Made by a program: the position numbers and the translations under genes | Origin: Impatiens glandulifera | Taxonomy: Eukaryota; Streptophyta; Magnoliopsida; Ericales; Balsaminaceae | DNA: 64,000 nucleotides | NCBI RefSeq assembly: GCF_907164915.1 | Contig: NC_061862.1 | Coordinates: forward strand, 31,025,628-31,089,627 | Direction: 5' to 3' | Shown: piece after piece, positions 20,814 through 51,389 of the stretch | How the letters are laid out: each line of letters begins with the position of its first letter | Numbering within the stretch: position 1 is the stretch's first letter | The notes under the pieces: model-generated | What the model was told of the DNA's origin: nothing | The model's input: only the letters and a program-made list of their open reading frames with translations | The model's database searches: none

Positions 20814-20815
20814 AG

Positions 20816-27110: not shown

Positions 27111-27171
27111 TGTTAGATAAAATCAGATCGGTTAATAGAACTTAACAAAAACAAACTTCCTATGCAGGAAC
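27111..27171 (+). repeat. First 61 bp of the Copia-2 left LTR, duplicate copy
   Basis: TGTTAGATAAAATCAGATCGG onward is the same 61 bp as 42620-42680. It ends in GGAAC, the target site of Copia-1. Confidence 0.88.
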
Positions 27172-28428
27172 TGATAGAAAAATTAAGTAGATTAATTTTG
27201 GAACCGGCCAGACAAACTAAACAGAAGTTAAACTTCATGTGCAGGTACTTCTAAAACCGTATGAACCGGTTGGGGCATCAAAACTGGTTGCTACTACTTC
27301 AAAGAAACCAGCCTCAAGTGATCAAGTTAAGATCAGAGGAACCGATTCTACCTTCTCAAGCAACCGGTTGACGAAGAAGAAAGATTATACTCTCTAACCG
27401 GATGATACACTACAAGACACAAAAACCGGATGGTTCAGAACAAAAGTCAGAAGATTCAAAATTCAAGAGTGACGTACCATGACGGAAGAAACGTGTCTTG
27501 AAAGAATAAAAGAAGATTAGATCCGATCAGAAGCATGCGAGGAAAGCAATGATGCTTTGTTGATCTGATGCTGACAACCGGTAGTGGATGTTCAACACGT
27601 GTCACAATCTGAAAACCGGCTATGACATCCTTTGCTCAGAGTCACCTGCATGAATGCCAGGTGTTGAGTAAGTTGAAGCATGCAAGCAACCTTTCTGCAA
27701 ACAGGCGTGATAATGATCGACCAATCCGCAAGAAAGAGAAGAAAGTAACCGTTGGCTACTTTCAGCTATAAAAGGAAGTCGAAACGTCTTCATTCAATGT
27801 AGTTCGGAAATTGTAGTTGTGAGCATCATAAGTTCTGAAAGTCATAAAGCATTAAATTCTAGAGAGATAAAGTTCTATACTGTAAAACCGGTGTGTCTAA
27901 AACCGGAAGTTCCTTGTGTGTTATTGTGTTGTGTTATTGTATTACATCAAAAGTGTGAGTTTGGTGTAACCGGCGAGTAGCGAAGTTGGGCTCGACCGGA
28001 AGTGTAGTTGTAACTCTAAAGAGTTAGTGGAGATCCTTCTCATAACCTGAGAAGAAGGGGTGACGTAGGAGGGTTTGCTCCGAACATCCATAAACAAACC
28101 TCTTGTCTCGTGTTCTTTCATTTGCTTTCATTTCTCGCTTACTTAACCTTAACCTCAAAACCAATCATACTCCCAAAACCGGTCACTCATATCCATAAAA
28201 TCTATTCACTCTAAGACATCATCTAAAAGTCGCATTCGTTGCTTCAACCTGAAACAGACATTTCCGCCCTTGAACCCGGTTCAAGAGTCTGTGACAGATT
28301 GTGTAGTGCTGAGAACGGTTTTAGTCTTTAACCGGACTATCACCAAAGAGTGTTGTGTGTTGTAAGCGGCCACCCTTACCGAAACCGGAAAACACCCCGG
28401 TCCTCCAAGGGCGTCCCCGATCCTAACA
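27172..28428 (+). repeat. Copia-1 5' LTR, 1257 bp
   Basis: Begins TGATAGAAAAATTAAGTAG and ends CGATCCTAACA. Nearly identical to the solo LTR at 42681-43938 (constant offset 15509, then 15510 after a 1-nt indel). Confidence 0.93.
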
Positions 28429-28430
28429 AG

Positions 28431-28441
28431 TGGTATCAGAG
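28431..28441 (+). other. Copia-1 primer-binding site (tRNA-iMet)
   Basis: TGGTATCAGAG, two bases after the LTR end. Confidence 0.9.
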
Positions 28442-28473
28442 AGAGGTTCTTAGCACTCAAGCAACCGAAAAAG

Positions 28474-30339
28474 ATGGGAAGCATGACCCACAGCGACAAG
28501 CCGCCAATGCTAAACAGCGAAGCATTTAGCAGTTGGAAGAAACAGATGTATCTACATCTGATTACGTTAGATGATGAGATGAGCCGAGTCCTGAAAGAGG
28601 GACCGATCAAGATCAACAAGGAGGAAAGCCTATGGACGAGTGAAGATTGGAGAAGAAGTAATCTAGACAACCATTACATGAGGCATATATATAAGGCTAT
28701 AGATAACAACACTTTGAACAAAATATCAGAGTGTGAAAATGCAAAGGAAGCCTGGGAAACGATCATTCAGATCCACGAGGGAAACGAAAGAACCAAGGAG
28801 AACAAAATCTTGGTGGCTACGCAAAAGTATGAAAACATAAGGATGAAACCGGGGGAAAACATGAAGGAATTCAGCAACCGGTTCACCAGTGTAGTAAACG
28901 AGCTTCAGACACTCGGAAAGAAGTACGACAACCGAGAAGTGATCATCAAAGCTCTAAGATCTTTGCCAAGCACGTGGGATATCAAGACCATGGTGATGAG
29001 GGAGTCAAGCACCCTTGGGCAGATGAAGTTGCATGATGTGTTTGAGGACTTGAAAGCCTACGAATTCGAGATCAAGTCTCGGATCGAAGATGAAGCATCC
29101 ACATCAACCGCAACAAGAGCTTTGGTCACATCGGTGGAACCGGCAGCTCCAGTATCAACCGCACCGGCTCCAGTCAAAAATACCGATCAAATAACCGACG
29201 ATGTGATGGCAATGCTAGCCCAGAAATTCGGGAAATTCATGAAGAAGAGCCAACCACCATCTAATAATGATTTTAATTATAACTACGTAGATAAATCAAA
29301 CAAGAGATGTTATAACTGTGATGGTTTTGGACATTTCAGGTCAGAGTGTAGAAAACCAAGAAGAGACGATAGAAAACCGGAAGGAAACTATCAAGGAAAT
29401 AATTATCAAGGGAATAACTATCAAGGCAACCGGTATCAGGGAAACAATTATCAAGGAAACAATTATCGGGGTAATAACAATAACCAACGAAACGACTACC
29501 GAAGAAACGATGATCAACATGCTGATGAAGGAAAGGAGATTCAAAAAGCACTCATTGCATCCGACGGTGGAAGCGAGTGGGCATACTCCGATAATGAAGA
29601 TGGTGAAGAGAAAGTAACCTGCTTCATGGCAAACGACGAAGAGGTATTTGATTTCTCTTCTGATGAGTTTACTAAAGAAGATATAGTTTCTGCACTCAAC
29701 CAAATGGTTGCTGAGTTCAGAAATATATCTGCGTATATACCAACTCCAATAGAGCCTAAAACCGAACAACCAAATAATGAATATGATAACGACCATAAAA
29801 TCGAAACGTATGAACCGGATGGACTATTCTCAGACAATGAGAAGACAGTTCAACCGGTAACCGAAACCGATGAACGAGCAATGTACGTCACGGCTGCGTG
29901 GGAGAGATCACGTCAAGTAGTGAAACAAATGTGTAACTATAAAAGACATCCGAAGTGTAGATGTGGTATCGGTTATGAACTAAGTAAACAAAATGAAACA
30001 AAACAATCTAACGGGATGAAACTAACGAAAAATAATCTTCCATTTATAAAATTTGTCAAAAGTTCACAAACCGAAAATAACCTAAAACCGGAAGAAACGC
30101 TTAAATATGTAGGTCCTAATGAATCTGAAAAATGGCTTCATCCTGAGAGAAGGAAAGCCAACCGGAAACCAAGTAAAACAAATAAAACTCGACATCAAAG
30201 AAGCCCATCACCACATAAGGCATTCTTGAGCAACGGCCAAGAAGTTAAGCCAAATATTATCAAAACAATAACCGGGAAAGTGATCCGACTCATTCAAGTC
30301 TGGATCCCAAAGGGACTAATCAACCATGGACCCAACTAA
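28474..30339 (+). CDS. gag: Copia-1 Gag (capsid/nucleocapsid), 621 aa
   Basis: Structural polyprotein of the retrotransposon particle. ATG at 28474, 46 nt after the LTR. The N-terminal capsid region has [19 protein letters not shown] and [19 protein letters not shown], then [18 protein letters not shown]. It is followed by a CCHC zinc knuckle [14 protein letters not shown] and a basic, repeated GNNYQGN tract. A long C-terminal extension carries [20 protein letters not shown] and ends in [18 protein letters not shown], as in Sireviruses. The stop TAA overlaps the pol frame by 14 nt. After the stop the gag frame still reads MWVPK, the conserved gag-pol linker word of related elements, so the stop may be recent or regulated. 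No internal defects. Confidence 0.95.
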
Positions 30340-33300
30340 ATGTGGGTACCAAAAAGGTGTAAATAATTGTTTGTTGCAGGTTAGGAGGAGCAACCGGTTA
30401 AAGAATTCAGAATGGTACTTGGACAGTGGATGCTCAAGGCATATGACCGGAAACAAGGAGCTACTAACTGACATCAAGTACGAAACCGGAGCATTCATCA
30501 CATTCGGGGATAACTCAAAAGGTAAAACCGTGGGCAAGGGTAAGATTGTCCATGGTGAATTATCCATAAATAATGTACTATTGGTAGAAAAACTAAGCTT
30601 TAACCTGTTAAGCATAAGCCAAATGTGTGATGTGGGCTACAAAGTTGAATTTCATAAAAACTCATGCTTGGTCAAAAATCAAAATAATGACACTTTGCTA
30701 ACCGGTAACCGGATAGGAAATATTTACAAAGTAAATTGGAAAACTGATTTCGAAAAACCTGTGTGTATGATAGCCGGAAATGACCCAAACTGGCTTTGGC
30801 ATAAACGGTTAAACCACTTGAATTTCAAAACGATTAACTTCATTTGCTCCAAAGAACTAGTTCACGGTTTTCCAAAAGTTAAGTTTTCAAAAGATAAAGT
30901 ATGTGCTGCATGTCAAATGGGGAAACAAGTGAAATCATCTTTCAAAAATAAAGGAAATTATCAATCTGAAAGATGCTTAGAACTCTTGCATATGGATCTG
31001 TTTGGTCCGGTTAAAGTAACCAGTTTAGGAGGCATGCATTATACTATGGTGGTTATTGACGATTACTCCAAATTTACTTGGGTTACTTTTCTAGCTTCTA
31101 AGAATCAAGCAACTCCAAACTTGATTAAACTGATTTTAAGAATACAAAATGAAAAATCTATTCGAGTAAATAAAATCAGAAGTGATAGAGGAACTGAGTT
31201 TATAAACAGTAACTTAACTACTTTTCTTGATGATTCCGGTATTAGGCACGAGTTGTCTAGTGCCAGAACTCCTCAACAAAATGGCCTGACTGAGAGAAGA
31301 AACCGAACTCTCAAGGAAGCCGCAAGGTCAATGATAGCCGATTCGGGTATCGCTCAAAAATTTTGGGCTGAAGCTATCAACACCGCTTGCTATACACAAA
31401 ATCAATCTTTAGTAACTAAACGGTTTTCGAAAACTCCTTTTGAAATTTATTTTGATCAAGTTCCAAGTGTACGGTATTTTCGAATTTTTGGTAGTAAATG
31501 CTTTGTTCACAATAACGGCAAGAATTACTTGACCGCTTTTGATGCTAAATCCGATGAGGGAATAATGTTAGGATATTCAGCTGTGAGTAAAGCCTACAGA
31601 ATATACAATACTAGGACTTTAACAGTTGAAGAAACCGCACACGTTGTTTTCGATGAATCGGTTGAGCGAAACACTGCATTACCCTTCGACCTTCACAACA
31701 GAATGGAAAATTTCAATATCTATTCTGATGATGAAGACGAGGTTCCGGTTTTTAGACGCTTTGTCAAGGACCAAGCGGTTGATGTTGAAATTCAACCTGA
31801 TCAAGCTGCTTTACCGCAGAAAGTTGACGCTTCAGTTTCTACTGAAGAAATCGGTCGGTCTGACTCTGTTCAGCTTACCGATCAGTCTAACATTGATCAG
31901 CCAGCCGAAAGCTTGGTAGACACGTCTCGGATTAACCTCAGAAGGAACAAAAATCATCCTCTTGAACTAGTAATAGGTAACATATCCTCACCCGTCCGAA
32001 CTAGGCAACAAAATTTGGATCACTATGGAAACTCTGCTTTCATATTACAAATTGAGCCGAAAAAGGTGGATGAAGCACTGTCAGATCCAGATTGGATCTT
32101 GGCAATGCAAGAGGAATTAAACGAGTTTGAGAGAAATAAAGTCTGGTACCTAGTCCCTAGACCGAAAAACAAACCGGTTATAGGCACACGATGGGTATTC
32201 AGAAATAAACTCAATGAAGACGGTTTAGTTACGAGGAACAAAGCCCGGCTAGTGGCTCAAGGCTATAAACAGGAAGAAGGCATTGATTTTGAAGAATCAT
32301 TCGCCCCTGTAGCTAGACTTGAGGCAATTAGAATATTTTTAGCATATGCAGCTTTCAAAAACTTCAAAGTTTATCAAATGGATGTTAAGAGTGCTTTTCT
32401 AAACGGTAAAGTAAATGAAGAGGTGTATGTTAACCAACCTCCAGGTTTTAAAAATCCAGAACATGAAAATCACGTTTACCGGCTGAATAAAGCTCTTTAC
32501 GGTTTGAAACAAGCTCCAAGAGCTTGGTATGATACTTTGACACAATTCTTATTTGATCACAAATTTACAATAGGTTCAGTAGACAAAACTCTTTTCAAAT
32601 TTGAAAGAAAGGAACAAATTTTACTTGTTCAGATTTATGTTGATGATATCATATTCGGATCAACCGATCCAAAATTATGTGATAAGTTTTCGAAAATGAT
32701 GACTGATAGATTTCAAATGAGTATGATGGGGGAAATGAGTTTCTTTCTAGGACTTCAGGTTAAGCAGATTGAGGCCGGAATCTTTATAAGTCAACCGAAG
32801 TATACAACCGAACTGCTGAAGAGATTTGGGATGGATACATGTGCCGAAGCGGCTACGCCAATGAGTCCCTCCGTGAAGCTGGACAAAGATGATGATGGTC
32901 AAGCCGTTGACATCACAGCATATCGAGAAATGATCGGATCACTGCTGTATCTCACTGCAAGCCGACCTGACATTCTGTTTGCGGTTGGAGTGTGCGGAAG
33001 GTTCCAAGCAAATCCAAAGCAATCTCATTACACGGCTGCCAAAAGAATTTTAAAATATCTGAAGGGAACTCAAGAAGTGGGACTTTGGTACCCAAAAGAC
33101 TCGAGCTTCAATCTAATAAGCTATTCAGATGTCGATTACGCGGGATGCAAAATCGACAGAAAGAGTACAAGTGGAACCTGTCAGTTTCTGGGTGACCGGT
33201 TAGTTACTTGGAGCAGCAAGAAACAAACATCCGTTGCAACCTCAACCGCAGAGGCGGAGTACCTAGCGGCTGGAAGCTGCTGTGCACAACTCCTCTGGAT

Positions 33301-33589
33301 TCAACAGCAACTCAGGGATTTCGGAATCGAAGCAAAGGAATCTCCAATCTTCTGTGACAACACCAGCGCCATAGCGATCACATACAATCCGGTGTTGCAC
33401 TCAAGAACAAAGCATATCGACATCCGACACCATTTCATCCGGGAGCATGTTCAGGAGAAACACATCCGGCTGGAATATGTGTCGACCGAGCAACAAGTAA
33501 CGGACATCTTCACGAAACCGCTACAGGAAGCTAAGTTTTCACATTTTCGAAATATCTTGGGTCTTACTAATCTAAATCAATTGATATAA
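30326..33589 (+). CDS. pol: Copia-1 Pol: protease, integrase, reverse transcriptase, RNase H, 1087 aa
   Basis: Open throughout. Order: aspartic protease [13 protein letters not shown] (active Asp33); GAG-pre-integrase zinc region [11 protein letters not shown]...CAACQMGK; integrase core with [18 protein letters not shown] and [15 protein letters not shown] for the DDE triad; Copia RT with [38 protein letters not shown] and YVDD at 771-774; RNase H with [18 protein letters not shown] and [17 protein letters not shown]. The frame is +1 relative to gag. Its first ATG lies inside the gag end; in Copia-2 that codon is GTG, so initiation there may not be the expression route. A T-rich tract ending TTGCAG|GTTA at 30379 resembles a splice acceptor. 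Confidence 0.95.
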
Positions 33590-34204
33590 TCATAATGCAT
33601 GCTTATATATAAAACCGGGATATGTGTTCAGGGAGAAGCTAAAGCTTTTCAAACCATATTCAAATAGGCCATTAATAAATCAAATATGCTAACCGGGAGG
33701 AAGTCTCCGGTTATGCCCGATCACTTCATAATTTCAAATCAAATGTATGTTTACTATACGGTTAAAATAATCGGGCTGAAGTGGATAAAACAAATCCAAA
33801 GTTGAACAACTGTTGACATCAATCAACTTTTCTTCATAAATGGAAATATCCTACTAAAACCGATCATGGAAAACCGCCTAGTACATATGCACTCTGGTCT
33901 GATGAACTGAACTTTTCCGGTTAACCTGAGATGACTGACTAAGTTTTCATGCATATTTTGAAAAATGAAGTCTGTAATTAATAAAAACAAGTCCACCACA
34001 ATCAAGATGACGACATGTGTCCATCATCAAGAGAGGGAGACTCACATCTTGTCAATAGATATTTTTCATCATTGCTATCTTAATAATAATTAGATTTACC
34101 TTGGAAATAACCATTAGTTACCTCAACAAGTTAAGTCTATTAAATAGTTGATGACATCATCAGGCATGCTTAACCTCATTAAAGACCAAGCCGAATTCCT
34201 GGGC
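33590..34204 (+). other. Spacer between Copia-1 pol and accessory ORF A
   Basis: About 600 bp with no ORF of note and frequent CCGG words. It presumably holds the upstream part of the ORF A promoter. Confidence 0.5.
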
Positions 34205-34296
34205 TATATAAACCATCCTTAATCCTTTTCAAAACATCACAAGTTCACTATTCACAAGTATCATCCTTGAGATAAAATCCTCTCTCTCTCAAAAAC
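34205..34296 (+). promoter_or_regulatory. Putative promoter and leader of accessory ORF A
   Basis: TATATAAA at 34205-34212, 85-92 nt before the ATG. A pyrimidine stretch cctctctctctc sits just before aaaaacATG. Its counterpart in Copia-2 is at 50576. Confidence 0.6.
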
Positions 34297-35034
34297 ATGA
34301 ATACCAACTCCCTAGCCAAGAAAATCCTATTGGCAGATTTTGAATCAATCTACCAATATGAGGATCATGAAGTAAAGGAAATGTTCTTAGCCATAGAAAG
34401 GAGTGGGCTAAGAAGTTTTCTTGAGAACAGGTTCATCATCGACTACCTTGTAGTCGAAGAACTCTTTGAGACCGCGAAAGAAGTGCATCGAGATATACTC
34501 GTTGCACAGGTCTACGGTCAGAAATTCCTATTCAGCGAGACGGATTTCGCTGTATATTGCGGCTTACCCAATGAAGGGGTAACCGACATAACCTACTCCC
34601 CGGTGACAATGGAAGAAATGTGTCGCCGGTTCTCAGGATCTGACATCCCGGTTAAACCCTGGGGTGCTAAGAGTCAACTTTCTCACAAGTACCAGATTCT
34701 TTGCGAGATTCTGGGAAAATCTGTTTTGTGCAGAGAGAAGAGTTACTACTACACCCAGAGGGTCTTCGAGATGATGATCGCCGTAACGGTTGGGACACCG
34801 GTTAACTGGTCCTGGATCATCTTCAGTAACCTGAAGAAAATGCTTCTCTCCAACAAGACCGGCTACGCTCCTCAGCTGAGCGGTTTCTGTGCAAGTCTGG
34901 ACATCCACTCCGGACCCTTCGTCACTCTTCACCCAAGGCACGTACTCACCAAGGAAAGAGTACAAGAGATGATCGACCGGTGGGAAGCGGTTAAAGCCAG
35001 AAGAGCTCAAGCGACTGAGTCATCAAATGTCTAA
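34297..35034 (+). CDS. Copia-1 accessory ORF A, 245 aa, unknown function
   Basis: Complete ATG ORF. It shares with ORFs B and C a domain of about 220 residues: DFESI near the start, SGLRSFL at ~32-38, a FLFSETDFAVYCGLPNEG segment, HKYQILCEILGKSVL, then a core with MIAVTVGTPVNWSWIIFSNL followed by GYAPQLSGF. I recognise this as similar to the 'putative plant transposon protein' domain annotated widely in plant repeats (Pfam Transposase_32-like), which has no established function. No signal peptide and no membrane helix, so it is not envelope-like in this sense. Its equivalent in Copia-2 (50633-51375) keeps the same position. Expression from its own promoter is inferred. Confidence 0.8.
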   Translation: MNTNSLAKKILLADFESIYQYEDHEVKEMFLAIERSGLRSFLENRFIIDYLVVEELFETAKEVHRDILVAQVYGQKFLFSETDFAVYCGLPNEGVTDITYSPVTMEEMCRRFSGSDIPVKPWGAKSQLSHKYQILCEILGKSVLCREKSYYYTQRVFEMMIAVTVGTPVNWSWIIFSNLKKMLLSNKTGYAPQLSGFCASLDIHSGPFVTLHPRHVLTKERVQEMIDRWEAVKARRAQATESSNV

Positions 35035-35073
35035 ACTGTTTCTTCTCCTTTTTCTTTTATCTCTTTTCTTACA

Positions 35074-35103
35074 AAACCGGTACTTTTGCTGTACTACCGG
35101 TTT
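35074..35103 (+). terminator. 3' hairpin after ORF A
   Basis: A 9 bp stem AAACCGGTA / TACCGGTTT encloses the 12-nt loop CTTTTGCTGTAC, 40 nt after the stop. The loop contains TGTA, an element used in plant polyadenylation signals. Role inferred. Confidence 0.6.
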
Positions 35104-35349
35104 CGCACTCCAATTAATGAATCAGATTTCTTTCCTTTCCAAGTCAAAATCTAAAATATTCAATGCGTCATATCAAAATAAATCATATCACTCTTGGAAA
35201 CATAAATCCTCATTATCAAAAAGCATGCCTGACTTGATTTGACAAGACATGTCTTTATTCTCTTGGAAAATCACAAAAACATTAATGACTAAGCATAAAC
35301 GGCTAGATTTTTCAAATCCTCTCATTAAATGCTCTCATTCATTCCAGGC

Positions 35350-35460
35350 TATAAAAGGGGACTCAACCTCCATTTTCAAAAACACGCCTTCAAGCATTCT
35401 TCTCTCTAAAAACTCGAAAGCTCAAGAACTCTCTCAAGATCTTCTTCACCACTCATCACC
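35350..35460 (+). promoter_or_regulatory. Putative promoter and leader of accessory ORF B
   Basis: TATAAAAG at 35350-35357, 104-111 nt before the ATG, with a leader rich in ctctc words. Counterpart at 51703 in Copia-2. Confidence 0.6.
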
Positions 35461-36219
35461 ATGTCTGCTGAGCTAAGAAATACTCTTATCATTGATTTTG
35501 AGGATATCAAGCATAGCGCCTACTATGACTGCATTTTTCAGCATATCATAGAATCTGGCTTGCAAGGTTTTCTCAAAGGTTCGGACACCATCCTCGTGGA
35601 GGAGGTGTGCGAATTCTACAACAACGGTCACATTCTGGATGATGGCAGCATTCGCACCATCATCGACGGTCAATTCCTCCAGTTTTCTGAGGAGGAATTC
35701 GCCACATTCTTTCACCTTCCGACCGAAGATTTCTCTGATTTTCCGACGCCGCATTTACCGGCTATGGAAACCTTCTTCAAGATCTTCTCTTCATCCTACA
35801 CTCCTATTAAGGATTTTAGGAAGAAAGAAAATCTCGCCCCTCACTACCAGCTCTTTCACGATCTGGTCCAAAGGTCTATCATAGGCCGAATGCCCAACCA
35901 GAACTACAGCCGGGAGGCATTCGATATTATGATAGCCATCATCCGCGACTCCGCCATCAACTGGGCGTCCTATCTTTTCAATAAGCTGAAGCAGCTTATG
36001 ACCGGTAAAAGAGGAAAGATCAGCTACACTCCTCAAATCACCCGGTTTCTCATGTCCAAGCGTCGCAACCTTGGAACCGGTGTTCCGGTTGGACCATCCA
36101 ACACCATCTCCATAGAAATGATACACAAATGGTTAACAAGAATTGAGGAACGGTTTCCTCAAAACACCATTGGAAAGTGGTATGAAAGGAGGTTGGAAGG
36201 AGGATGGTTCACAGAATAA
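35461..36219 (+). CDS. Copia-1 accessory ORF B, 252 aa, unknown function
   Basis: Complete ATG ORF and a diverged paralogue of ORF A: IDFEDIKH, ESGLQGFLKG, FLQFSEEEFATFFHLPTEDF, HYQLFHDLVQRSIIGR, FDIMIAIIRDSAINWASYL, then ISYTPQITRFL and a final IHKWLTRIEERF. No membrane helix or known catalytic motif. Its equivalent in Copia-2 (51791-52491) keeps the order and spacing but has a 1-nt frameshift. ORFs A and B differ in most residues but keep the same motif order, so the duplication that made them is old. Function unknown. Confidence 0.8.
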   Translation: MSAELRNTLIIDFEDIKHSAYYDCIFQHIIESGLQGFLKGSDTILVEEVCEFYNNGHILDDGSIRTIIDGQFLQFSEEEFATFFHLPTEDFSDFPTPHLPAMETFFKIFSSSYTPIKDFRKKENLAPHYQLFHDLVQRSIIGRMPNQNYSREAFDIMIAIIRDSAINWASYLFNKLKQLMTGKRGKISYTPQITRFLMSKRRNLGTGVPVGPSNTISIEMIHKWLTRIEERFPQNTIGKWYERRLEGGWFTE

Positions 36220-36245
36220 ATTTTCTTTCTTTTCGCTTTCTTTCC

Positions 36246-36278
36246 GGTTTCTGGTCATTTTGCTGTACGACCAGAACC
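36246..36278 (+). terminator. 3' hairpin after ORF B
   Basis: Stem GGTTTCTGGTC / GACCAGAACC (one unpaired base) encloses loop ATTTTGCTGTAC, 27 nt after the stop. The loop equals the ORF A loop at 11 of 12 positions, while the stem sequence differs and still pairs. Confidence 0.65.
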
Positions 36279-36568
36279 GCTCCAAATGTTAATCATTTCC
36301 CTTATCTATTAATGAAATATTTCAATTCTTAAAAAATTTCCGGTTTTCCTTTGTCTTATCATTACTTCCGGTTTTTCAAACTTAAACAAAATGTTAAAGT
36401 TAACCTAAAATTTCCGGTTAACGAAATTTCAAGTGAAACCGGTCTCTCGAGCAAAGATGAAAATTTGAAAATTTAAACCGCCCACAGTTTTACCTCTCAA
36501 AGTTTACCGCCCATCGAATTTCCGTTTTTACCGCCGAAAGTTACGGCAGTAACTTTTTGGAGGGAAAG

Positions 36569-36746
36569 TTGGCGCCAAAACATCAAATTGACGGTTCATC
36601 TTCAAAACCGCTTGGAACCGCCATCTATATAAGTTCAAATCAGCCCATTCGACACATGTGCTTTCTCTCTCTAAGATTTCCAGAACTTCAAAAGCTTTTC
36701 TCTCTCCGATCATCACATTTCCTCATCCTTTCTCTTTAAAACCATC
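36569..36746 (+). promoter_or_regulatory. Putative promoter of accessory ORF C/D with an E2F-like site
   Basis: A palindromic TTGGCGCCAAAA (36569-36580) fits the E2F consensus TTTSSCGC on the reverse strand. TATATAAG follows at 36626-36633, then a ctttctctctct leader before the ATG at 36747. The block tttggagggaaa just upstream also occurs before ORF C' in Copia-2. Confidence 0.6.
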
Positions 36747-39605
36747 ATGGATCTAGGCAAAGCTCCATTTCAATGGATGTTACAAGTAGATTTCGCAGAT
36801 ATTGACGAGCATGTTGACGATAAGAACAAGGCTGTTCTTCAACTTCTACGAGAATCTGGGTTGGAAAAGTTCCTGTCTGGTCCGTTCATAAACCATCCGG
36901 CGGCGGTGACGGAATTCTTGGCGACGGCGACGCTGTCGAAGAGGAAGATATCGGCGACCGTTAACGGGAAGGCCGTCCTCATCACCGAAGAAATTTTTGC
37001 GGAAGCACTTGGTCTGCCTAACACAGGTTCGGACCTAAAGATTGACTTAACCGAGGCAGAATCAAATGCTGCCCGGTTGGTGGTATCTTTCTCAGGTCAG
37101 GATCTGGTGATCCACAACAGCCGAAAGATCAAGCTAAAACCGGAATACAGATGGTTAGTAACCGTCATCGCCAAATCAATCCAAGGAAGGGGAGGTAATT
37201 TCGACAACCTCACAAAACTTAAACTTAGAATGCTGTTAGCTATTGTCCGCGGCGACAAGGTGGACTGGGGGTACGTCATCTACGAAGAGTTCTGTCAAAT
37301 GGTAATAAAGAAAGATGGCCGGGTGCAGGCCTATGCTATGCAAATCGTCAAAATTCTTGAGTTTCTCAAAGTGGAACTCGGTGAAGGCATACCGCTTCCG
37401 ATCTCCAACATTCTTGACTCTGAGTCAATGATCGAAAAACCGGAGAAGACGATCAAACCTAAATCCTCAAAGACTAAATCATCCAAGGGAGCTAGTTCAT
37501 CGGTTCCAGTTGAAGAAGAAACCAGACAGAAGAAACCGTCAAGAAAGGCGGTTGAGGCAGAAGTTCCACCAGAACCGAAGAGGAGGAAGAAGGTAGCTGC
37601 GAAGAAGAGTTCAAAGAAACCGGCGGACTCCGAGAAAACGCTTTCCTCGGACAATCCACCGGAAAGAACCGCAGATGTATTTCAGCCCATCCCACTCAAC
37701 ACCGTCATTCCCGTCCCCATTTCATCCCATTCTCCAAGGCAAACCGAATCTTCGGGGAGGAAGGAGAACAAGTAAGTTTCCAAGGAGGAAGCAGAGGTAA
37801 CCATTCACTCTGAAACCTCCAAGTCACCAAGTAAGCGAATTGGAGAGGTATTGGCCGATGTGGGCTTGAATACCTCAGAAGCAATCAATAATGTGGTCCA
37901 AGAGATCACAAAGGAAACCGAAGAGGACGATGTTTCAAGTCGTCGGAAGCCAGATAATCAGGTTGAAATGCCTGATCAGACAGAAGCACAACCGGTCGAT
38001 GAGACGGCCAACACAATGGAAATCACACCTCCGGCTCAGGAGGGAAATATTGAAGACCAGGAACCTTCCGGTTCCGCAGGAGGGAAGACAGTCTTGGAAG
38101 TCCAACCGGCCTCAACACCTGAAGGCTCCAATCAGGTAAACAAAGGCAAAGGCATTCTCATTGAAGAAACAACGGCAACCGGAACAGGCACGCTGCAAAT
38201 CGACCCTCAACATGAAGCCATAACCGGGGACGAGGTTCCCTACACCACAGAGCAAGAAAATGAGATCTTCGAGGAACTCATTCAAGACATGAACAAAGGT
38301 GCAAGTGATGCGCTAGCGCCATACATCTTGTGGGTGAAGCTCCGATGCGAAACCAAGTTATCCGACATGGTTCCAGGTTTAAGTGGCAACAAACAGTGGG
38401 TCAAACTCATCAAGCTAGAAGAAAGGGTACTTACTTTGGCTAACACCAACCTAATTCAACCGGCGTTTAACAAAGCTCCGGTAATCATTGAAAATGCTCG
38501 GTTACAGGCAGTTGAGAATGCGTTTCAAGGAACCCAAGGAAAGAAGCTAAACCCGATTGAAATGAGGATGGCCGAACGATTTCTTGGGGTACGAGAACAG
38601 CTGGTGCGAAATCTTGATCGTCTTGACATGCAATGGTGGAAAAGTTGCCAACGTCAATTCAACAATGCCGAGTTATATCAAAGTAAGCCATTCTTTGTAA
38701 GTGGTGAGACATCCGGAACCTCTGAAAACCTGGAACAAGAAGCCTCTCAACCGGTCAAAGCCCTGGACATAGATCAAATCAAGCAAGCGATGGCTGAAAC
38801 AGTTGACTCATGCCTTGGAAATTTTAAAGCTGTAACCGACGAAAGAATTGCAGTGGCTGAAGATAAACTGTCAAACTCTCTACAAACCATGATGGACACG
38901 ACCATGCAGACAACAGTTAAAACCATGATTGCCGAGTCCGTCAAAGCCGCAACCGCTCCATTACTGGACATGCTGCAAGCAATGGCTATTCAAATCGGGG
39001 AAATGTCCAAGGTTCAAGACACCACAACTCTGACGCAAATCGAAAAGGATGTTGAAACCGCAAAGAAACTACAAGAGGAAGAGATAGAAAGGGAACGGTT
39101 ACAGAAGGAGAGTGAAGATAAAGACTATGCGCTTGCCCAACAATGCAACGAGGAAGAGCAGACCAACGTCCAGGAACTTCCACTGGCTCAACCGTCTCAT
39201 TCCATGAATACAAGGAACAAGAAGAAGCGAAGCGCCGTTAAGAATGTGATGAAGAGAGCAGAACAGAAAACAGCCTTACCGGTCGTGATAAATGCACAAC
39301 CGCTTGATGAAGAAGAAGAAGATCCGGAGGAACTCAATCAACGGAAGAGAAGGACAACCGGAGAATCCACAGCAACTCCAAGCTTCAGACCTCCAAATGC
39401 TCCACCGCCTCCACCTCCAAAACCAGTTTGTGCCAACTTCAATCTCAAGAATAAGGGCACCGGTCACTCAAGCGTATGGGCCGGTGTGCTGATCGACGCC
39501 GAAAGACGTGATAGAGAACACAAAGCAAGGCAAGAAGAAGAAAGAAGACGGTTGGAGAAGGAGCTGGAAAAAGAGCAACACAAGGGGGGATCATCCAAGC
39601 CCTAA
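36747..39605 (+). CDS. Copia-1 accessory ORF C/D, about 952 codons with one in-frame stop
   Basis: One frame runs from the ATG at 36747 to the stop at 39605, broken only by TAA at 37773-37775; the second part has no ATG at its start. The N-terminal ~220 residues are the same domain as ORFs A and B (VDFADID, SGLEKFLSGPF, EEIFAEALGLPNTG, LKPEYRWLVTVIAKSIQGRGG, AIVRGDKVDWGYVIYEEF). Next is a Lys-rich region with EPKRRKKVAAKKSSKKP, which could be a nuclear-localisation signal. After the stop come an acidic/Thr-rich region, a globular part near 38250-38700, predicted coiled coil (~39000-39150), NAPPPPPPKP and a final charged helix (EEERRRLEKELEKEQ). No signal peptide or membrane helix. The stop could be a mutation, read-through or part of an intron boundary (caa|gtaagttt). 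Confidence 0.7.
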
Positions 39606-39799
39606 ACCTCTTTCTTTGTTTTACTTTGAACAATTATGTTTTATTCTGTTTCAGAACTTGGTTACTCTGTTCTTTCTAATAGGTTCTAACATATTTCTCT
39701 CAAAAATCATACTCATGTTTTTGAAACATATTTTTCTCAAAAATCATACTCATGCTTTTGAAACATATTTTTCTCAAAACGATCAAACTCATGTTTTTA

Positions 39800-40065
39800 A
39801 ACCGGCCATATATTACATGTTTTGAATATTTATTTTAAATAATCAAAAAGGGAGAAATTGATAGAAAAATTAAGTAGATTAATTTTTCTAAACTGGCTAC
39901 TAAGCAAATTCTGTTAAAACCGGCCATATACTACATGTTTTGAATATTTATTCTAAATAATCAAAAAGGGAGAAATTGATAGAAAAATTAAGTAGATTAA
40001 TTTTGGAACCGGCCATACATTACAATTTTTGAATATTTATTCTAAATAATCAAAAAGGGAGAAAT
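39800..40065 (+). repeat. Three polypurine-tract/LTR-start modules of Copia-1
   Basis: The module ttttgaatatttattctaaa, then caaaaagggagaaat|TGATAGAAAAATTAAG, occurs three times. TG starts lie at 39859, 39977 and 40066 (spacings 118 and 89). Only the last is followed by full LTR sequence. Confidence 0.88.
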
Positions 40066-40365
40066 TGATAGAAAAATTAAGTAGATTAATTTTGGAACCG
40101 GCCAGACAAACTAAACAGAAGTTAAACTTCATGTGCAGGTACTTCTAAAACCGTATGAACCCGTTGGGGCATCAAAAACTGGTTGCTACTACTTCAAAGA
40201 AACCAGCCTCAAGTGATCAAGTTAAAGATCAGAGGAACCGATTCTACCTTCTCAAGCAACCGGTTGACGAAGAAGAAAGATTATACTCTCCAACCGGATG
40301 ATACACTACAAGACACAAAAACCGGATGGTTCAGAACAAAAGTCAGAAGATTCAAAATTCAAGAG
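40066..40365 (+). repeat. Copia-1 3' LTR, truncated to 300 bp
   Basis: Matches the 5' LTR up to attcaagag (27469), then switches to CACTA-derived sequence at 40366. Confidence 0.9.
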
Positions 40366-42619
40366 CATCGATATGAAGTTTTTCCAAATTATCTTCTCAT
40401 ACAAATATCCCCATCAAAATCATTACGCTCCAAGTTTAGATACACTGTAGCATCGATATGAAGTTTTTCCAAATTATCTTCTTCAGTTTGTACATTAGAA
40501 CTACTATCAATCTGTACATCATTGTACATCAGCTGTAGCCATTGAGGATAACGAGGAAATTGATGCTTACGATTTCTCTAATGAAGAGGTCCAGGACAGT
40601 CTAGAAAGTCAGGAACCCAACACTTATATTCATTCATGAATATAGTGACATGGAACATAAGAGGACTCAATGACCCTCTGAAATGCAAAGAAACAAGGAG
40701 GATAATTGAGAACCAGAAGATCAATATTATGGGTATTCTTAAGACAAAATTCAAAAGCCGGAACATTGAGAAGGTTAGAAACCTGTGTATTGATAGCAGT
40801 TGGGAAATAATTCACAACTCAAATGACAAAACGGGAAGAATCTGAGTTATTTGGGATAACAAAATTGTTGAGGTTAGGGCTCTCTTTTCGAATGATCAAG
40901 CAATCCCGATGGAGGTCAAAGGAAGAATCACAGGAATCGTGTTGAATATTGCTATTGTCTATGGTAGCAACTCAAGCACTGACAGAAGACTCCTATGGAA
41001 TTCTCTTAGAAACTAGACCAGTAATGATAAATCTCGGGGTGTCCTCGGTGATTACAACATAACTAGAAACAAATCTGATTGTAGCTCAGAATCTGAAATA
41101 ACTCGGGATATGCTTGACTTTAATGACTGTATCAGAGATACGAGTTGTATCGAGCCTACCAATTTTGGGAATTTCTTCACTTAGTCTTCTACGAGAGGAA
41201 ATGAGAAAGTTAGAAGAAATAGAATTGACAGATGTCTGGTAAATGAGAACTGGATTAACCAATTTCCGATAAGTCAACTTCACGTTCTGAATCCGGGTAT
41301 ATCTAATCACTGCCCGATTAAATTGTTTTGGAAAAAGGAAGAATGGTTCAAAAAGCCCTTTAAAAATTTCAATTTCTAGATGGAAAACGACAAATTCAAG
41401 GGTATTCTTGAAAGCGTATGGTCTAAAGATGTCAGAGGATCCAACATGTACATGGTTTTTGAGAAGCTTATGCTCCTGAAGAATCATCTTCAAAGCTTTG
41501 ATAAGAAGAAGTTCAACAATATCTCCAATAGAGTTCTGGCTGCTAGAGAAGAACTAAAAGAAGTTCAGAAAAGGTTATTAAGGGATGATAGTGATGGACA
41601 ACTCAATGAAACAGAAAGGGATGCACTTGAATACTTCAGGAAGCGAAGTCAACTTGAAGAAAATTTTGTTAAACAGAAATCAAGATAGAGCTGGCTCTCG
41701 TTGGGTGAAAAAAACACAACTTTCTTCTATATAAAATACAAGGTTAGAAACATTAGAAATAATGTATACAGACTGAAGAATGATGATTGTGAATATGTTC
41801 AGGGTTAAAAGGGTGTACAAGATTTGACTATCTATTTCTATAAGCAACTTATGGGTAAAAAAGCAGCATCAAAGTCACCTGAATACCTTGTATCAGATTA
41901 TTGATAGGAAAATCTCTATAGAAGATAGTCGCGAGCTGATAAGGGTGGTCACGAGGGTTGAGGTTAAAGAAGATATGTTTAGTATTGATGTGAATAAAAT
42001 CCTGAGTTCTGATGGGTTTAATGCACAGTTCTTCAAAGACAATTGGTCGGTTGTGGGTAAAGACGTTACTGATGGGTTCTAGAGTTTTTCAAGAATAAGA
42101 AGATGTTAAAGCAATGGAATACAGCGGTCCTAACCTTGATCCCCCAAACTACGGTACCCGAGAAAGTACAAGAGTTCAGACCAATTTCCTGCTGCAATGT
42201 GATTTATAAAATAATTTCAAAAATAATTTCTAAACGATTTAAAAATGGCATAGGAAAAATTATAAATCTTAACCAATCTGCATTCATCCCCGGTAGGACA
42301 ATCTCTCATAATATTCTTCCATTGTAGAGCCTTTTAAAAGGCTACAGTAAAAAGAAAATATTACCGAGAGTGACTTTCAAAATAGATATCAAGAAAGCTT
42401 TTCACTCTAGTAGATGGGAAGCCATCTAGGACTTTCTAGTTGTTTCTTCTTTTCCTATGATTTTTATTGATTGGATTATGTAGTGCATTTCATCATCTTG
42501 CTTTGTTGTTAGCGTCAATGGAGTTCACAAATGTTATTTCAAGAGGGAAAATTGGGTAAGGCAAGGGGACCCCCTCTCTTCTTACATTTTCGTAGCTATC
42601 ATGGCGATCTTTGAGAGCA
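40366..42619 (+). pseudogene. Second copy of the CACTA/LINE segment (LINE copy 2)
   Basis: 40396-42619 repeats 24887-27110 at a constant offset of 15509 with rare substitutions. It contains the CACTA fragment to about 40529, the LINE ORF1 end, ORF2 start at 40636 and the partial RT. It carries the same Trp-to-stop and Gln-to-stop changes, so the LINE was dead before it was copied. A ~30 bp filler, catcgatatgaagtttttcc onward (40366-40395), matches 24945-24974 and marks the breakpoint. Confidence 0.92.
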
Positions 42620-45049
42620 TGTTAGATAAAATTAGATCGGTTAATAGAACTTAACAAAAACAAACTTCCTATGCAGGAACTGATAGAAAAATTAAGTAGA
42701 TTAATTTTGGAACCGGCCAGACAAACTAAACAGAAGTTAAACTTCATGTGCAGGTACTTCTAAAACCGTATGAACCGGTTGGGGCATCAAAAACTGGTTG
42801 CTACTACTTCAAAGAAACCAGCCTCAAGTGATCAAGTTAAAGATCAGAGGAACCGATTCTACCTTCTCAAGCAACCGGTTGACGAAGAAGAAAGATTATA
42901 CTCTCCAACCGGATGATACACTACAAGACACAAAAACCGGATGGTTCAGAACAAAAGTCAGAAGATTCAAAATTCAAGAGTGACGTACCATGACGGAAGA
43001 AACGTGTCTTGAAAGAATAAAAGAAGATCAGATCCGATCAGAAGCATGCGAGGAAAGCAATGATGCTTTGTTGATCCGATGCTGACAACCGGTAGTGGAT
43101 GTTCAACACGTGTCACAATCTGAAAACCGGCTATGACATCCTTTGCTCAGAGTCACCTGCATGAATGCCAGGTGTTGAGTAAGTTGAAGCGTGCAAGCAA
43201 CCTTTCTGCAAATAGGCGTGATAATGATCGACCAATCCGCAAGAAAGAGAAGAAAGTAACCGTTGGCTACTTTCAGCTATAAAAAGAAGTCGAAACGTCT
43301 TCATTCAATGTAGTTCGGAAATTGTAGTTGTGAGCATCATAAGTTCTGAAATTCATAAAGCATTAAATTCTAGAGAGATAAAGTTCTATACTGTAAAACG
43401 GTGTGTCTAAAACCGGAAGTTCCTTGTGTGTTATTGTGTTGTGTTATTGTATTACATCAAAAGTGTGAGTTTGGTGTAACCGGCGAGTAGCGAAGTTGGG
43501 CTCGACCAGAAGTGTAGTTGTAACTCTAAAGAGTTAGTGGAGATCCTTCTCATAACCTGAGAAGAAGGGGTGACGTAGGAGGGTTTGCTCCGAACATCCA
43601 TAAACAAACCTCTTGTCTCGTGTTCTTTCCTTTGCTTTCATTTCTCGCTTACTTAACCTTAACCTCAAAACCAATCATACTCCCAAAACCGGTCACTCAT
43701 ATCCATAAAATCTATTCCCTCTAAGACATCATCTAAAAGTCGCATTCGTTGCTTCAACCTGAAACAGACATTTCCGCCCTTGAACCCGGTTCAAGAGTCT
43801 GTGACAGATTGTGTAGTGCTGAGAACGGTTTTAGTCTTTAACCGGACTATCACCAAAGAGTGTTGTGTGTTGTAAGCGCCCACCCTTACCGAAACCGGAA
43901 AACACCCCGGTCCTCCAAGGGCGTCCCCGATCCTAACAGGAACAGTTAAAGAATTCAACCGGTCAAGTAACTCAACCGGTTAAGTATCTCAACCGGTCAA
44001 GCAATTCAACCGGCCAAGAACCTAACCGATCAAGAAGATAAGACCGGTCAGATAAGAAGGCCAAAATCATTGGACATTCGGTCAATCTAAAGATATGAAA
44101 AACCGGAAATCATCCGGTTAACCTAAACAACCGACCGATGCAAATAGATACTTTGAGTATCTGTTGAAGATGATACCAAAGGACAGATCCTAGTATTACC
44201 ATATTCATACAAGTCTGAGGACAATTTGCAGGCTGCAGAAGATCGTCCGACAGGATCTTTCCACTCCAGGATAAATCAGAGACGCAATCCTCCAGGTACA
44301 GGTAACTGTCCAACCGACAGTTGCCATACTAAGTAAAAGACAAACCTAGCCGGTTTGACCTATACACTGGAAGTCTAGACTGCCAGGTCTGAATCACTGA
44401 ACCTCTGCTCAACCAATCAGATTCAAGGAAATGAAATGTGACCGTTGGCACATTTCACATATAAAAGAAGGAGCTCAAGAGGAATAAATGCGGTTACCAG
44501 TCCTACCAACTACAAGCTCTAAGATTTATTACAAGTTCATCTCTCTATAAGATTTAGAGCTTAAGTGTGTATTTGAAGTGTGATTACAATTTCGGTTAAA
44601 ATTGTACGGGTGTTATCGAGCAGCAAATAAATCTCGATCGGATTGTGTTTGTGTATTCATTAGTGAATATCCTTCTCGCGGTTTGGAGAGGAAGGGGTGA
44701 CGTAGGAGTTTTATCTCCGAACATCCATAAAAAACCGTCTTGTTATTTACTTTCTGCCGGCCTTATACTCTAACCGATTCGTACTATTCTAAACTGACTT
44801 ACCGAATCCTAAACGGACCTACCATACTCCAAACCGACCTTACCCAAATCCAGTTCTGTCTATCTCGTGTGTGTGTTGCTTCAACCTTAAACAAACCACT
44901 TCCACACTTGAACTCGGTTCAAGGGTTTGTGACAATTTGTGTAGTATTGAAACCCCGGTGTCAATCTTTAACCGGATTAATCACCAACTTTGAGTGAAAC
45001 GCGCTAACCGGCCAGACCCCGGTCCGCCAGCCACGACCTATATCCTAAC
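42620..45049 (+). repeat. Copia-2 left LTR, split by a solo LTR
   Basis: Parts 42620-42680 and 43939-45049 together are about 1167 bp once one GGAAC is removed, against 1159 bp for the right LTR. Starts TGTTAGATAAAATTAG and ends TATCCTAACA. Confidence 0.9.
42681..43938 (+). repeat. Solo LTR of Copia-1, 1258 bp
   Basis: Bounded by GGAAC on both sides (42676-42680, 43939-43943). Nearly identical to the Copia-1 5' LTR. No internal sequence remains, the usual result of LTR-LTR recombination. Confidence 0.93.
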
Positions 45050-45051
45050 AA

Positions 45052-45063
45052 TTGGTATCAGAG
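45052..45063 (+). other. Copia-2 primer-binding site (tRNA-iMet)
   Basis: TGGTATCAGAGC, two bases after the LTR end. Confidence 0.9.
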
Positions 45064-45089
45064 CAGTCAGCTTCAATACTCAAGCAAGC

Positions 45090-46856
45090 ATGTCTTTCGA
45101 TAGGCCCCCAATGCTAGAAGGTGACGGCTTTGCCAACTGGAAGGTACGCATGCATTTGCACCTAATTACCATGGATGACGAGATGCAGTTCATCCTGACT
45201 GAAGGACCGGTAAAGATTGACAAAGATAGAAAGGATTGGACGACTGATGATAGGAGAAGAAACAATCTGGACAACCATGCTAGAAACCGCATTACTAACG
45301 GTTTGGACAGAAATACATTCTGTAAGGTCAGAGATTACAAAACCGCAAAGGAAACATGGGAAGCGGTGATTCAAATTCATGAGGGAAATGAAAGAACCAA
45401 GGAAAACAAGATAATGGTGGCTACCTAGAAGTTTGAAAACATCAAGATGAAACCGGGAGAAACAATGAGGGAGTATAGTGACCGGTTCACAGATGTGATA
45501 GATGATCTATCAACTCTTGAAAAGAAGTATGACAACAAGGAAATCATCATGAAAGCGTTAAGGTCTCTCCCAAGTGCATGGGATATAAAGACGATGGTAA
45601 TGAGGGAATCAAACTGTCTAAGCAAGATGAAGCTACACGATGTGTTCGAAGATCTTAAGGCATATGAGTTTGAAATGAGATCTAGGATTGAAGATGAAGT
45701 TTCTGCCTCAACCTCCACAAAAGCATTAGTCACATCCATAGAACCGGTTGCTCCTGCACCGATCAGAACCGCTGAATAGTTTACCTAGGATGCCATGGCA
45801 ATGTTTGCACAGAAGTTTGACAGATTTATGAAGAGAAGCCAACCGACAAACAACAACAACTATAACTACGGTGATAAATCTAATGTTAGATGTTATAATT
45901 GCAACTGTTTAGGACATTTCAGGTGAGAATGCAGAAAACCAAGGCGGGACGAACGGAAACCGGACGATCAGAACCACCGAAATAACTATCCACAAACCGG
46001 TGAAGGAAGTGAAGTTTAGAAAGCACTGATAGCCGATGATGGAGGAAGCCTATGGGCACACAGTGACAGTGATGACGAACTCACATGTCTCATGGCAAAC
46101 GAGGAATAGGTATTCGACTCTCCTTGTGAAGAATTTACTAAGGATGAGTTATTTAATACAATAAATGATATGATAGTAGAATATAAGAACCTATTAACAC
46201 TAATACCAACCCAACTCAACTTTAGAACCGACCCTATAGAACCAGCCATGTCCGAACTCAATATCTATAGTGTTCAATCTAACGAAACCAAGGCAACACC
46301 TGAACTATCCTCTGAGACCGAACAACTCAAGGAGTCAGTTCAAGAGTTGACCGAGGAGGAAGATGCTCGAACCTAGTATCGAATAGCCGCATGGAAAAGA
46401 TCCAGTGAAATGGTGAACATAATGTGTAGTTATAATAGACATCCCAAGTGCATGTTTGGTCTCGGATACAAAAACAACAGATCCAACAACCGGAACCACT
46501 TCGACAAAATGAGGCTCACAAAGGATAATCTTCCCTTTGTAAGCTTTGTCAAGAGTTCCTTAACCGACGATGAGGAACTAAGTGCCTCATATCCTGAAGA
46601 CGAACTAATCTATGTAGGTCCAACTGATTCTGAAAAATGGCTTCACCCTGAGAAAAGGAAAGCCAACCGGCCTAAAGGTAAGAAATCTGAACCGCATAGG
46701 ATAAACCAAAGGCCACCCCCGAGTAAGGTACTCTTAGGAAAACAGAAAGACTCCAAACCGAGTGCAGGAAAACTAGTTAAAACCCTAATCGGGAAATTCG
46801 TCCGACTTATTAAAGTCTGGATACCTAAAGGGCTAATCACCTGTGGACCCAAGTAA
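45090..46856 (+). pseudogene. Copia-2 gag, broken by stops
   Basis: ATG at 45090 gives MSFDRPPMLEGDGFANWK. The frame matches Copia-1 Gag along its length but meets TAG at 45426 (where Copia-1 has Gln), TAGs around 45777 and 45786, a TGA inside the zinc knuckle (CYNCNCLGHFR*EC) and further stops near 46018, 46107 and 46374. It ends [18 protein letters not shown], followed by TAA and MWVP as in Copia-1. Confidence 0.9.
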
Positions 46857-50118: not shown

Positions 50119-50575
50119 AAAGGAAAATCGGTTCGAACAGACAAAATCGACAGTTCATCCTAACCTGTCGGAATTCGAATTCAACAAGGTATCTATTGAA
50201 GAATCGCATTGTCTACCAGTTACAGTAAACCGACCGGTTATTTAGTACATGCACCAATTAACCGCATCGGAACGAATAACTGAAAACCAACCGATTTGGA
50301 AATAGTATACTTTGGATTATTTGGCTTCCAAACATAAACGGAAAAACTATCTGCGTTTAAAGTTATCTGTTCTAAAAAGTTACATTTTCAAAGCAAAATG
50401 GTCATACCTCAAAAGACGTGAAGATATGATATCTTTCACCGTCCAGGCCTATGACTCACATCCTAGGTTGTAGACATGCCCATTTCATGCAAATATGTTA
50501 TATCCTCTGGTTAATACACCTTATCACCTGCTATACACTGGATAATACTATCATCCCGCCACTAATATATAAGTT

Positions 50576-51375: not shown

Positions 51376-51389
51376 GTCACTCCTTCCTA

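Follow-up and report, generated by a model that had tools for sequence, protein, structure and literature searches.

The stretch of plant DNA analysed here, referred to as the window (64 kb from Impatiens glandulifera, contig NC_061862.1, positions 31,025,628 to 31,089,627), contains two Ty1/copia retrotransposons, one nested in the other. The inner element, E1, was inserted in the first 61 bp of the 5' long terminal repeat (LTR) of the outer element, E2, with the target-site repeat GGAAC, and both elements carry a set of accessory genes between pol and the 3' LTR. Coordinates are those of the window, and the features of E1 and E2 all lie on its + strand. The E1 set consists of open reading frame (ORF) A (34297-35034; 245 amino acids), ORF B (35461-36219; 252 amino acids) and a longer frame, C/D. 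An earlier note on this DNA had given the same sizes for A and B and had described C/D as about 952 codons. One frame does extend to position 39605, but it is not open throughout, as an in-frame TAA at codon 343 (37773-37775) divides the 342 codons of ORF C (36747-37775) from the 609 codons of ORF D (37776-39605), which continues the C frame. The 342-amino-acid C product combines a Transposase_32-like domain (E 7e-8) with a basic tail that holds a nuclear-localisation-like cluster, and D forms an acidic C-terminal part. A, B and C are open and intron-free. By eye, the stop between C and D lies within the sequence GTAAGT, which might be a 5' splice site; an intron there seems unlikely because the downstream sequence, also judged by eye, is not AT-rich.

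A, B and the N-terminal part of C are paralogous and share one domain, as the earlier note had claimed. Pairwise BLASTP gave identities of 28.8% for A-B (E 8e-26), 27.4% for A-C (E 2e-19) and 28.3% for B-C (E 1e-15), E-values that derive from a six-protein database and are hence relative only. Local alignments of the same pairs reached z-scores of 29-44 over 300 shuffles, and a tblastn search with A against the whole 64 kb recovered B at E 1e-23. Both A and B align over most of their length with the first 240 residues of C. The order of the shared motifs is the same in the three proteins, with deviations such as DW in C where A and B have NW. The motif 'I...V.G..i.FSe..FA...LP.EG' we take to resemble parts of the plant mobile domain (PMD) and of DUF1985; this serves as no more than a lead.

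The same three genes recur 3' of the E2 pol, as found with tblastn, and their order (A', B', C'/D') is that of E1. The frames of A' (50633-51375; pieces 50633-51067 and 51064-51375) and B' (51791-52491; pieces 51791-52018 and 52024-52491) are broken, C' (52991-54082) encodes 363 amino acids with a Transposase_32-like match (E 8e-5), and D' (54083-55518) is in broken frames. In local alignments the cognate E1 gene scored clearly best for four of the five E2 pieces: the first A' piece (183 with A versus 162 with B), the second A' piece (137 versus 84), the second B' piece (302 with B versus 241 with A) and C' (385 with C versus 243 with A). The first B' piece scored almost equally with B (94) and with A (90), with z favouring A (16.6 versus 15.1), and there is little resemblance between D and D' (23% over 186 positions, E 0.001). 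Since most E2 pieces score best with their cognates, and since cognates are only 35-39% identical between the elements (pol, 71-83%), the duplication that produced the set probably preceded the E1/E2 split. Among the spacers, B-C (z 7.5) and D-LTR (z 9.6) align clearly between E1 and E2, A-B weakly (z 3.8) and pol-A not at all (z 1.3). The E1 B-C spacer also aligns with the E2 A-B spacer (z 4.1), perhaps through the end hairpins described below. The earlier note had likened the row of genes to a gene-cassette array. This likeness was rejected: identical order in both elements, together with the age of the copies, indicates a fixed gene set and not a member-exchanging array, although recombination sites were not searched for.

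The broken frames raise the question of whether a once-working accessory set is now decaying, with only the LTR-driven gag-pol of any importance in E1. The in-frame TAA of C/D and the damage to A', B' and D' are what such decay would leave. However, the frames of A, B and C in E1 are open, and the E1 LTR copies differ by just 1.1-1.3%, the full-length copy compared being one that sits past a duplication junction. E2, with LTRs of 95.7% identity, is the older copy, and damage to a single copy of that age is to be expected. Decay is therefore regarded as an improbable account of the set.

Transposase_32 (PF20167) was the sole notable Pfam family among the accessory proteins. It was matched by C (E 7e-8, 32.9 bits), C' (E 8e-5, 23-24.5 bits), the second B' piece (E 0.0025, 18.2 bits) and B (E 0.008, 16.5 bits), with a range over these matches of E 3e-8 to 0.008, and by four of the eight members of an alignment designated A2 at E up to 1. 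The profile did not match A, either A' piece or the first B' piece. As all scores fall below the curated cut-off of 45 bits, the accessory proteins are called relatives, not members, of this family. A protein database search yielded 202 word-sharing candidates with A alone and 1957 with an eight-row alignment, none at E 0.01. In the same database 6308 proteins matched pol at E up to 1e-10 among 8000 scored, the best identity among the matches listed being 69%. As these matches show that plants are represented, the accessory proteins would be diverged or unpredicted in this database rather than simply out of its scope. Neither the 120 listed pol relatives (best E 1.6) nor the solved structures (best E 0.44) gave a match to the accessory profile. 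A check of C-terminal tails, limited to listed pol relatives carrying the FTKPL motif, found one protein of the 120, P0002 from Centaurea, with more than 120 residues beyond its last FTKPL. Its tail was rejected as a relative of the domain, aligning no better than five shuffled tails, and its last 197 residues showed a weak match to ATHILA ORF-1 (E 0.012, under the cut-off). Searches with pol found no match in viral contigs and, in prokaryote contigs, 14 stretches that fit a pattern and 0 relatives.

The accessory proteins are under constraint at the protein level. Between E1 and E2 the proportion of nonsynonymous differences (pN) was 0.41-0.44 and that of synonymous differences (pS) 0.68-0.80 for the A, B and C domains (235, 211 and 232 aligned codons). 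The 95% bootstrap ranges of pN/pS were 0.47-0.64 for A, 0.50-0.71 for B and 0.49-0.69 for the C domain, ratios that are rough because synonymous sites are near saturation. All of these ranges exclude 1, which indicates constraint combined with fast change. The corresponding ranges were 0.18-0.23 for pol (1103 codons) and 0.15-0.32 for gag (111 codons), and Ka was 0.60-0.66 for the accessory genes versus 0.15 for pol, about four times the pol rate. The C tail (29 aligned codons, pN/pS 0.28-0.83) was excluded from this argument. Constraint also bears on the idea that the units are captured host genes, or an unrelated block carried by chance. They do resemble whole genes, equipped with a promoter and end signals, and gene capture by plant elements is described (PMC7264820). 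Against this stand the recurrence of all three genes, in unchanged order and under constraint, in two elements whose pol differs by 17-29%, the lack of introns in A, B and C of E1, and the fact that the sole notable family match is to a transposon family. Capture is considered very unlikely.

A role as envelope-like or movement proteins, serving exit of particles or passage through plasmodesmata, might be expected from the position of the ORFs, which is that of env; SIRE-type elements often carry ORFs in this place (PMC6317226). A plain 19-residue hydropathy scan of A, B, C, D, C' and D' found no membrane-like segment, the maxima being at most 1.27 for A, B, C and D, 1.46 for C' and 0.60 for D', against 2.57 for a leucine-rich repeat (LRR) receptor-kinase-like ORF used as control. 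No Pfam envelope or movement family was matched, and a basic cluster follows the domain in C and likewise in C'. D and D' are strongly acidic (net charge -29 and -24). The absence of a membrane-like segment makes an envelope role unlikely, in agreement with the earlier note, and the envelope or movement explanation as a whole appears highly improbable.

Each accessory gene is preceded by a TATA box at a similar distance. In E1 these boxes begin 92 nt (A; 34205-34211), 111 nt (B; 35350-35356) and 121 nt (C; 36626-36632) 5' of the ATG, in accordance with the 90-120 nt of the earlier note, and in E2 the distances are 67 nt (A'; 50566-50572), 88 nt (B'; 51703-51709) and 117 nt (C'; 52874-52880). 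The word TATA(A/T)A(A/T) occurs exactly once in the stretch upstream of each of the six ATGs (201-451 nt). In 500 dinucleotide shuffles a TATA word fell between -130 and -60, limits fixed after the finding was seen, in 4.8% of trials for A, 3.0% for B and 1.2% for C; over the six genes the frequencies were 1.2-11%, with a post hoc product of 3.5e-9. The E1 interior (28429-40067) holds 10 such words, comprising the three accessory boxes, three overlapping words at 33604-33608 just past pol and four in gag; the E2 interior (45049-55835) holds 8, comprising the three accessory boxes, four overlapping words at 55561-55567 and one in pol. The leaders of A, B and C are CT-rich as had been noted, with 60-68% C+T versus an E1 background of 45 +/- 8%, and values of 54-69% were obtained for five of the six leaders. 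Five of the six leaders are also free of ATG from TATA+25 to the start codon, although the spacers average about 1.07 ATG per 60 nt. A possible E2F-like site in the C promoters was not upheld: C has one site (shuffle P 0.19), C' has two (P 0.033) and the other four genes have none.

These signals have to be weighed against expression of the accessory ORFs from the LTR transcript only, by splicing or readthrough, with the TATA boxes as leftovers or chance. Splicing and readthrough are the routes reported for env-like ORFs of plant elements, namely Bagy2 and SIRE1 (PMC7264820; PMC2829016). A splice acceptor is possible in the leaders of C, C', A' and B', where YAG triplets are present, following pyrimidine runs in C and C'. 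The E1 leaders of A and B, however, contain neither CAG nor TAG between the TATA box and the ATG and hence offer no splice acceptor, a point against splicing into either gene. Readthrough of the SIRE1 type cannot serve A, as the gap of about 700 nt between pol and A is beyond the reach of a suppressed stop codon. The TATA boxes, moreover, are similarly placed in all six cases in two diverged elements. Expression from the LTR alone is accordingly rather doubtful.

Hairpins follow A and B in both elements. Downstream of A a hairpin (35074-35103) with the loop TTTTGCTGTAC is followed by TTAATGAA at 35114; downstream of B a hairpin (36245-36279) with the same loop is followed by TTAATGAA at 36309; and downstream of A' a hairpin (51388-51422) with the loop TTTTGTTGTAC is accompanied by TTAATGAA at 51495. 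The hairpin after B' (52521-52538) has the loop CTGTAT, which is not of the TTTTG form. The 64 kb contain just three copies of TTTTG(C/T)TGTA, all on the + strand and none on the minus strand. These copies lie 50, 39 and 25 nt past the stop codons of A, B and A', each in a hairpin loop, with arms that differ in sequence. Folding of segments picked by eye gave z-scores of -2.7 (A), -3.5 (B), -3.1 (A') and -3.2 (B'), and four 100-nt control stretches gave -1.15, -2.62, -0.29 and +0.93. Given these controls, hairpin energy alone is weak evidence, and the constant loop and its placement are the stronger part. UUUGUA recurs as a far-upstream poly(A) motif in plants (PMC10082929), and the hairpins with their poly(A)-like signals are probably 3'-end signals of A and B. 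The sequence marks of separate genes, that is, a TATA box, a leader without upstream ATG and an end signal, are thus present, with the exceptions of an ATG in the C leader and of end hairpins being found only at A, B, A' and B'.

Taken together, the observations are best explained if A, B and C/D are ancient, separately transcribed and probably nuclear accessory proteins, possibly with an anti-silencing role, a reading to which we assign a probability of about 0.58. Comparison with E2 strengthens the earlier note's proposal that the three ORFs are paralogous and show individual promoter signs. For A and B the 3' hairpins contribute an end signal as well. One accessory gene, duplicated to three, would have joined this copia lineage before the E1/E2 split. 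Each of the three would be its own RNA polymerase II gene, composed of TATA box, pyrimidine-rich leader and ORF, with transcripts of A and B ending at the hairpin and poly(A)-like signal and those of C/D probably in the 3' LTR. The LTR transcript would supply Gag-Pol and the genomic RNA, and short internal transcripts would supply the accessory proteins, in the manner of foamy retroviruses. The proteins, of which A and B have the domain alone and C/D has a nuclear tail in addition, would most likely be nuclear regulators that help the DNA of the element to escape silencing or to be transcribed.

Several points weigh against this interpretation, in addition to the near saturation of synonymous sites mentioned above. 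The TATA, leader and hairpin tests were all chosen after inspection of the sequence. The C leader contains one upstream ATG, at 36656, and the A' leader is not CT-rich (47%). Hairpin z-scores are modest, and one of the four controls, the stretch after D, reaches -2.6; at B' both the TTTTG loop and TTAATGAA are missing, the latter a nonspecific signal that occurs 10 times on the + strand of the window, with three of the 10 following A, B and A'. Internal end signals should also truncate the genomic RNA. Conservation between the elements is low for the pol-A spacer (z 1.3) and moderate for the A-B spacer (z 3.8), A is without any Pfam match, and a strong nuclear signal is found neither in A (none) nor in B (one KRGK). 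For function, the reading draws only on where the genes lie, on the basic clusters and on analogy.

A further property of both elements is an excess of AACCGG. Counting both strands, E1 (27173-40067) has 69 copies versus a shuffle mean of 4.2, and E2 (43939-56991) has 53 versus 5.0. AACCG and ACCGG are the top two of the 512 strand-merged five-letter words in E1 and in E2. AACCG averages 9.7 per kb inside the elements (25 bins, lowest 2) versus 1.4 outside (34 bins), with five mixed bins omitted; the single outside bin with 9 contains a related LTR fragment (60504-60973), which is AACCGG-rich, and two copies of a long interspersed nuclear element (LINE)-like sequence have one AACCG each. A third, short LTR element in the window (19572-23056) has no AACCGG excess. 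The excess in E1 and E2 spans LTR, coding and spacer sequence. Under 400 synonymous-codon shuffles, coding AACCGG numbered 39 in E1 versus 9.8 expected (maximum 21), and 15 in eight E2 pieces, with E2 gag left out, versus 5.6 (maximum 13), so the encoded proteins do not explain the pooled excess. Taken singly, A (p 0.10), two of the three E2 pol pieces, both A' pieces, the second B' piece and D' were nonsignificant. A host control, the receptor-kinase-like ORF, had two AACCGG versus 0.8 expected (p 0.2) and a mild excess of AACCG (7 versus 3.4, p 0.04).

At pol positions common to both elements, which are 76% identical in nucleotides, 10 of the 26 AACCG sites of E1 (29 in E2) and 7 of the 16 ACCGG sites (13 in E2) are shared. 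This is somewhat more than the 25% expected from independent decay (0.76 to the fifth power), and it suggests that some sites were retained while most turned over at like density. Both orientations are enriched, with a + strand bias of 2:1 (85:44 and 86:48), and the base that follows AACCG differs between E1 and E2 (chi-square p 0.0025). AACCG/CGGTT reaches 15.9 per kb in the E1 LTR and 19 in the B-C spacer, where about 2 is expected, mostly as half-sites; the full palindrome AACCGGTT is rare (five in E1, three in E2). The density of this short motif beyond what the encoded proteins call for, in elements with fast-evolving accessory proteins, suggests by analogy with VANC that these proteins, or partners they recruit, may bind AACCGG to oppose silencing. 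More specifically, the three putatively separately transcribed nuclear paralogues of this lineage might recognise AACCGG and its variants, accumulated along the whole element, as a sequence-specific anti-silencing module, a tentative idea against which the odds are considerable. Within it, the preferred motif could have shifted between AACCGG (E1) and AACCGA (E2) alongside the fast-diverging proteins. Other possible causes of the motif are MYB-type factors of the host, nucleocapsid binding and a lineage-specific mutational habit. To our knowledge such an anti-silencing strategy is reported only from DNA transposons; a retrotransposon would share it if the idea were true, and the reported link in Sireviruses between a repeated motif and the env-like gene would gain a cause if accessory proteins act on AACCGG.

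Membership of E1 and E2 in the Sireviruses is likely, although not all features agree. E1 has the copia domain order of gag_2, integrase and RVT_2, and both elements have sense ORFs between pol and the 3' LTR. Identical copies of the polypurine tract (PPT) are clustered by the 3' LTR (three in E1, two in E2); where Sireviruses have the octamer AGGGGGAG and then AT/TG, however, both elements have AAAGGGAG and then AAAT/TG. A primer binding site, presumably of tRNA-Met type, lies by the 5' LTR in E1 and in E2 and is nonspecific. Sites of this type are found in most copia groups (PMC6317226). CGG-CCG repeated motifs are described in Sirevirus LTRs and, for env-carrying elements only, also in the linker, where 77 of the 79 precede env (PMC2829016); the motif is present in the LTR and before the env-like gene here too, but it is element-wide and includes coding sequence. 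The description of Sireviruses in the earlier note, with a single envelope-like ORF after pol, agrees roughly with the literature consulted. In a large survey, 74% of SIRE elements had an extra sense ORF on the 3' side, and these ORFs fell into 19 groups that resembled one another little or not at all (PMC6317226). Only extra ORFs of 250 codons or more entered that survey. With 245 and 252 codons, A and B stand right at this threshold, so sets of this kind may have escaped the count. An internal promoter for the Sirevirus env was proposed in 2002 and not conclusively found (PMC2829016). E1 and E2 differ from Sireviruses as described in having three paralogous ORFs, each with a TATA box of its own, and in the hairpins that follow A and B.

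Other elements offer partial parallels. Grande, of maize, belongs to Ty3/gypsy. Its accessory gene, gene23, lies between pol and the 3' LTR, is transcribed from a promoter of its own and has a nuclear product (PMC7264820), but it is one antisense gene, in contrast to three sense paralogues in a copia element. Sunflower Athila 14 carries a Transposase_32-like 3' extra ORF with a nuclear localisation signal (PMC11728184); that element is gypsy and not copia, and three copies per element are present here. Retand elements have sense and antisense ORFs (PMC11963269). VANC, which opposes silencing of VANDAL elements (PMC5735166; PMC10398659), resembles the accessory proteins as a fast-evolving element-encoded protein associated with a dense short motif that is rare nearby and varies between relatives (PMC5735166). 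VANDAL elements are DNA transposons, however, and their motif lies mainly in non-coding tandem repeats, whereas here it is also in coding sequence. The VANC domains DUF1985 and DUF287 gave no hit at E up to 10 in the 10 pieces scanned, a search in which HMMER filters drop many weak matches. The PMD is a transposon-borne plant domain whose host relatives act in silencing, and its use by elements for anti-silencing has been speculated upon (PMC5418596).

Foamy viruses offer a parallel of arrangement, in that their accessory genes are served by an internal promoter. This second promoter lies inside the provirus, upstream of the genes at the 3' end (PMC7828637), and is single. In the passages of the literature consulted on extra ORFs of plant elements, no element with three paralogous, separately promoted sense ORFs was found. 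The known theme is thus the env-like or extra ORF, and what is new is the presence of three paralogous sense ORFs with promoter signs of their own. The expression and role of the post-pol ORF of plant retrotransposons have been open for over twenty years, and the two diverged elements, which between them offer six candidate promoters and four candidate end signals, make the question directly testable.

The remaining parts of the two elements are as follows. The E1 5' LTR (27172-28428) is followed by a primer binding site-like sequence, TGGTATCAGAG (28431-28441), which we take to be of the tRNA-Met type, then by gag (28474-30339; a Retrotran_gag_2 match, with a zinc knuckle just under its cut-off) and pol (30326-33589; Pfam matches to integrase and reverse transcriptase). 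Three PPT-like copies (39847, 39965 and 40054; 39847-40065) stand ahead of the first 300 bp of the 3' LTR (40066-40365), which ends at a duplication junction, and the GGAAC repeats are at 27167-27171 and 43939-43943. The E2 5' LTR is split into an initial part at 27111-27171 and a part 3' of the E1 insertion (43939-45048), followed by the same TGGTATCAGAG sequence at 45053, pol (46843-50118; 71-83% amino acid identity to E1 pol in three pieces) and the 3' LTR (55831-56989; 95.7% identical to the 5' copy). E2 itself was inserted in the LINE-like sequence, a label given by eye, with GAGCA target-site repeats at 27106-27110 and 56990-56994.

The truncation of the E1 3' LTR at 40365 is due to a 3.54 kb duplicate (24885-28428 and 40394-43938), 99.3% identical in its LINE part and 98.9% in its LTR part. 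Its junction contains a 33-nt stretch (40366-40398) copied from near 40450, which resembles end-joining repair or is possibly a haplotype or assembly effect. The short LTR element at 19572-23056 has a PBS-like sequence at 20816, a gag remnant and GTCTA/AGACG-rich repeats, and no accessory ORF was seen in it. A broken copia pol fragment lies on the minus strand at 62274-63240. Host genes in the window include one for ribosomal protein uS5 and the LRR receptor-kinase-like ORF, the latter labelled by eye, and at 6856-7976 there are about four tandem copies of a unit of about 280 bp with about 92% identity.

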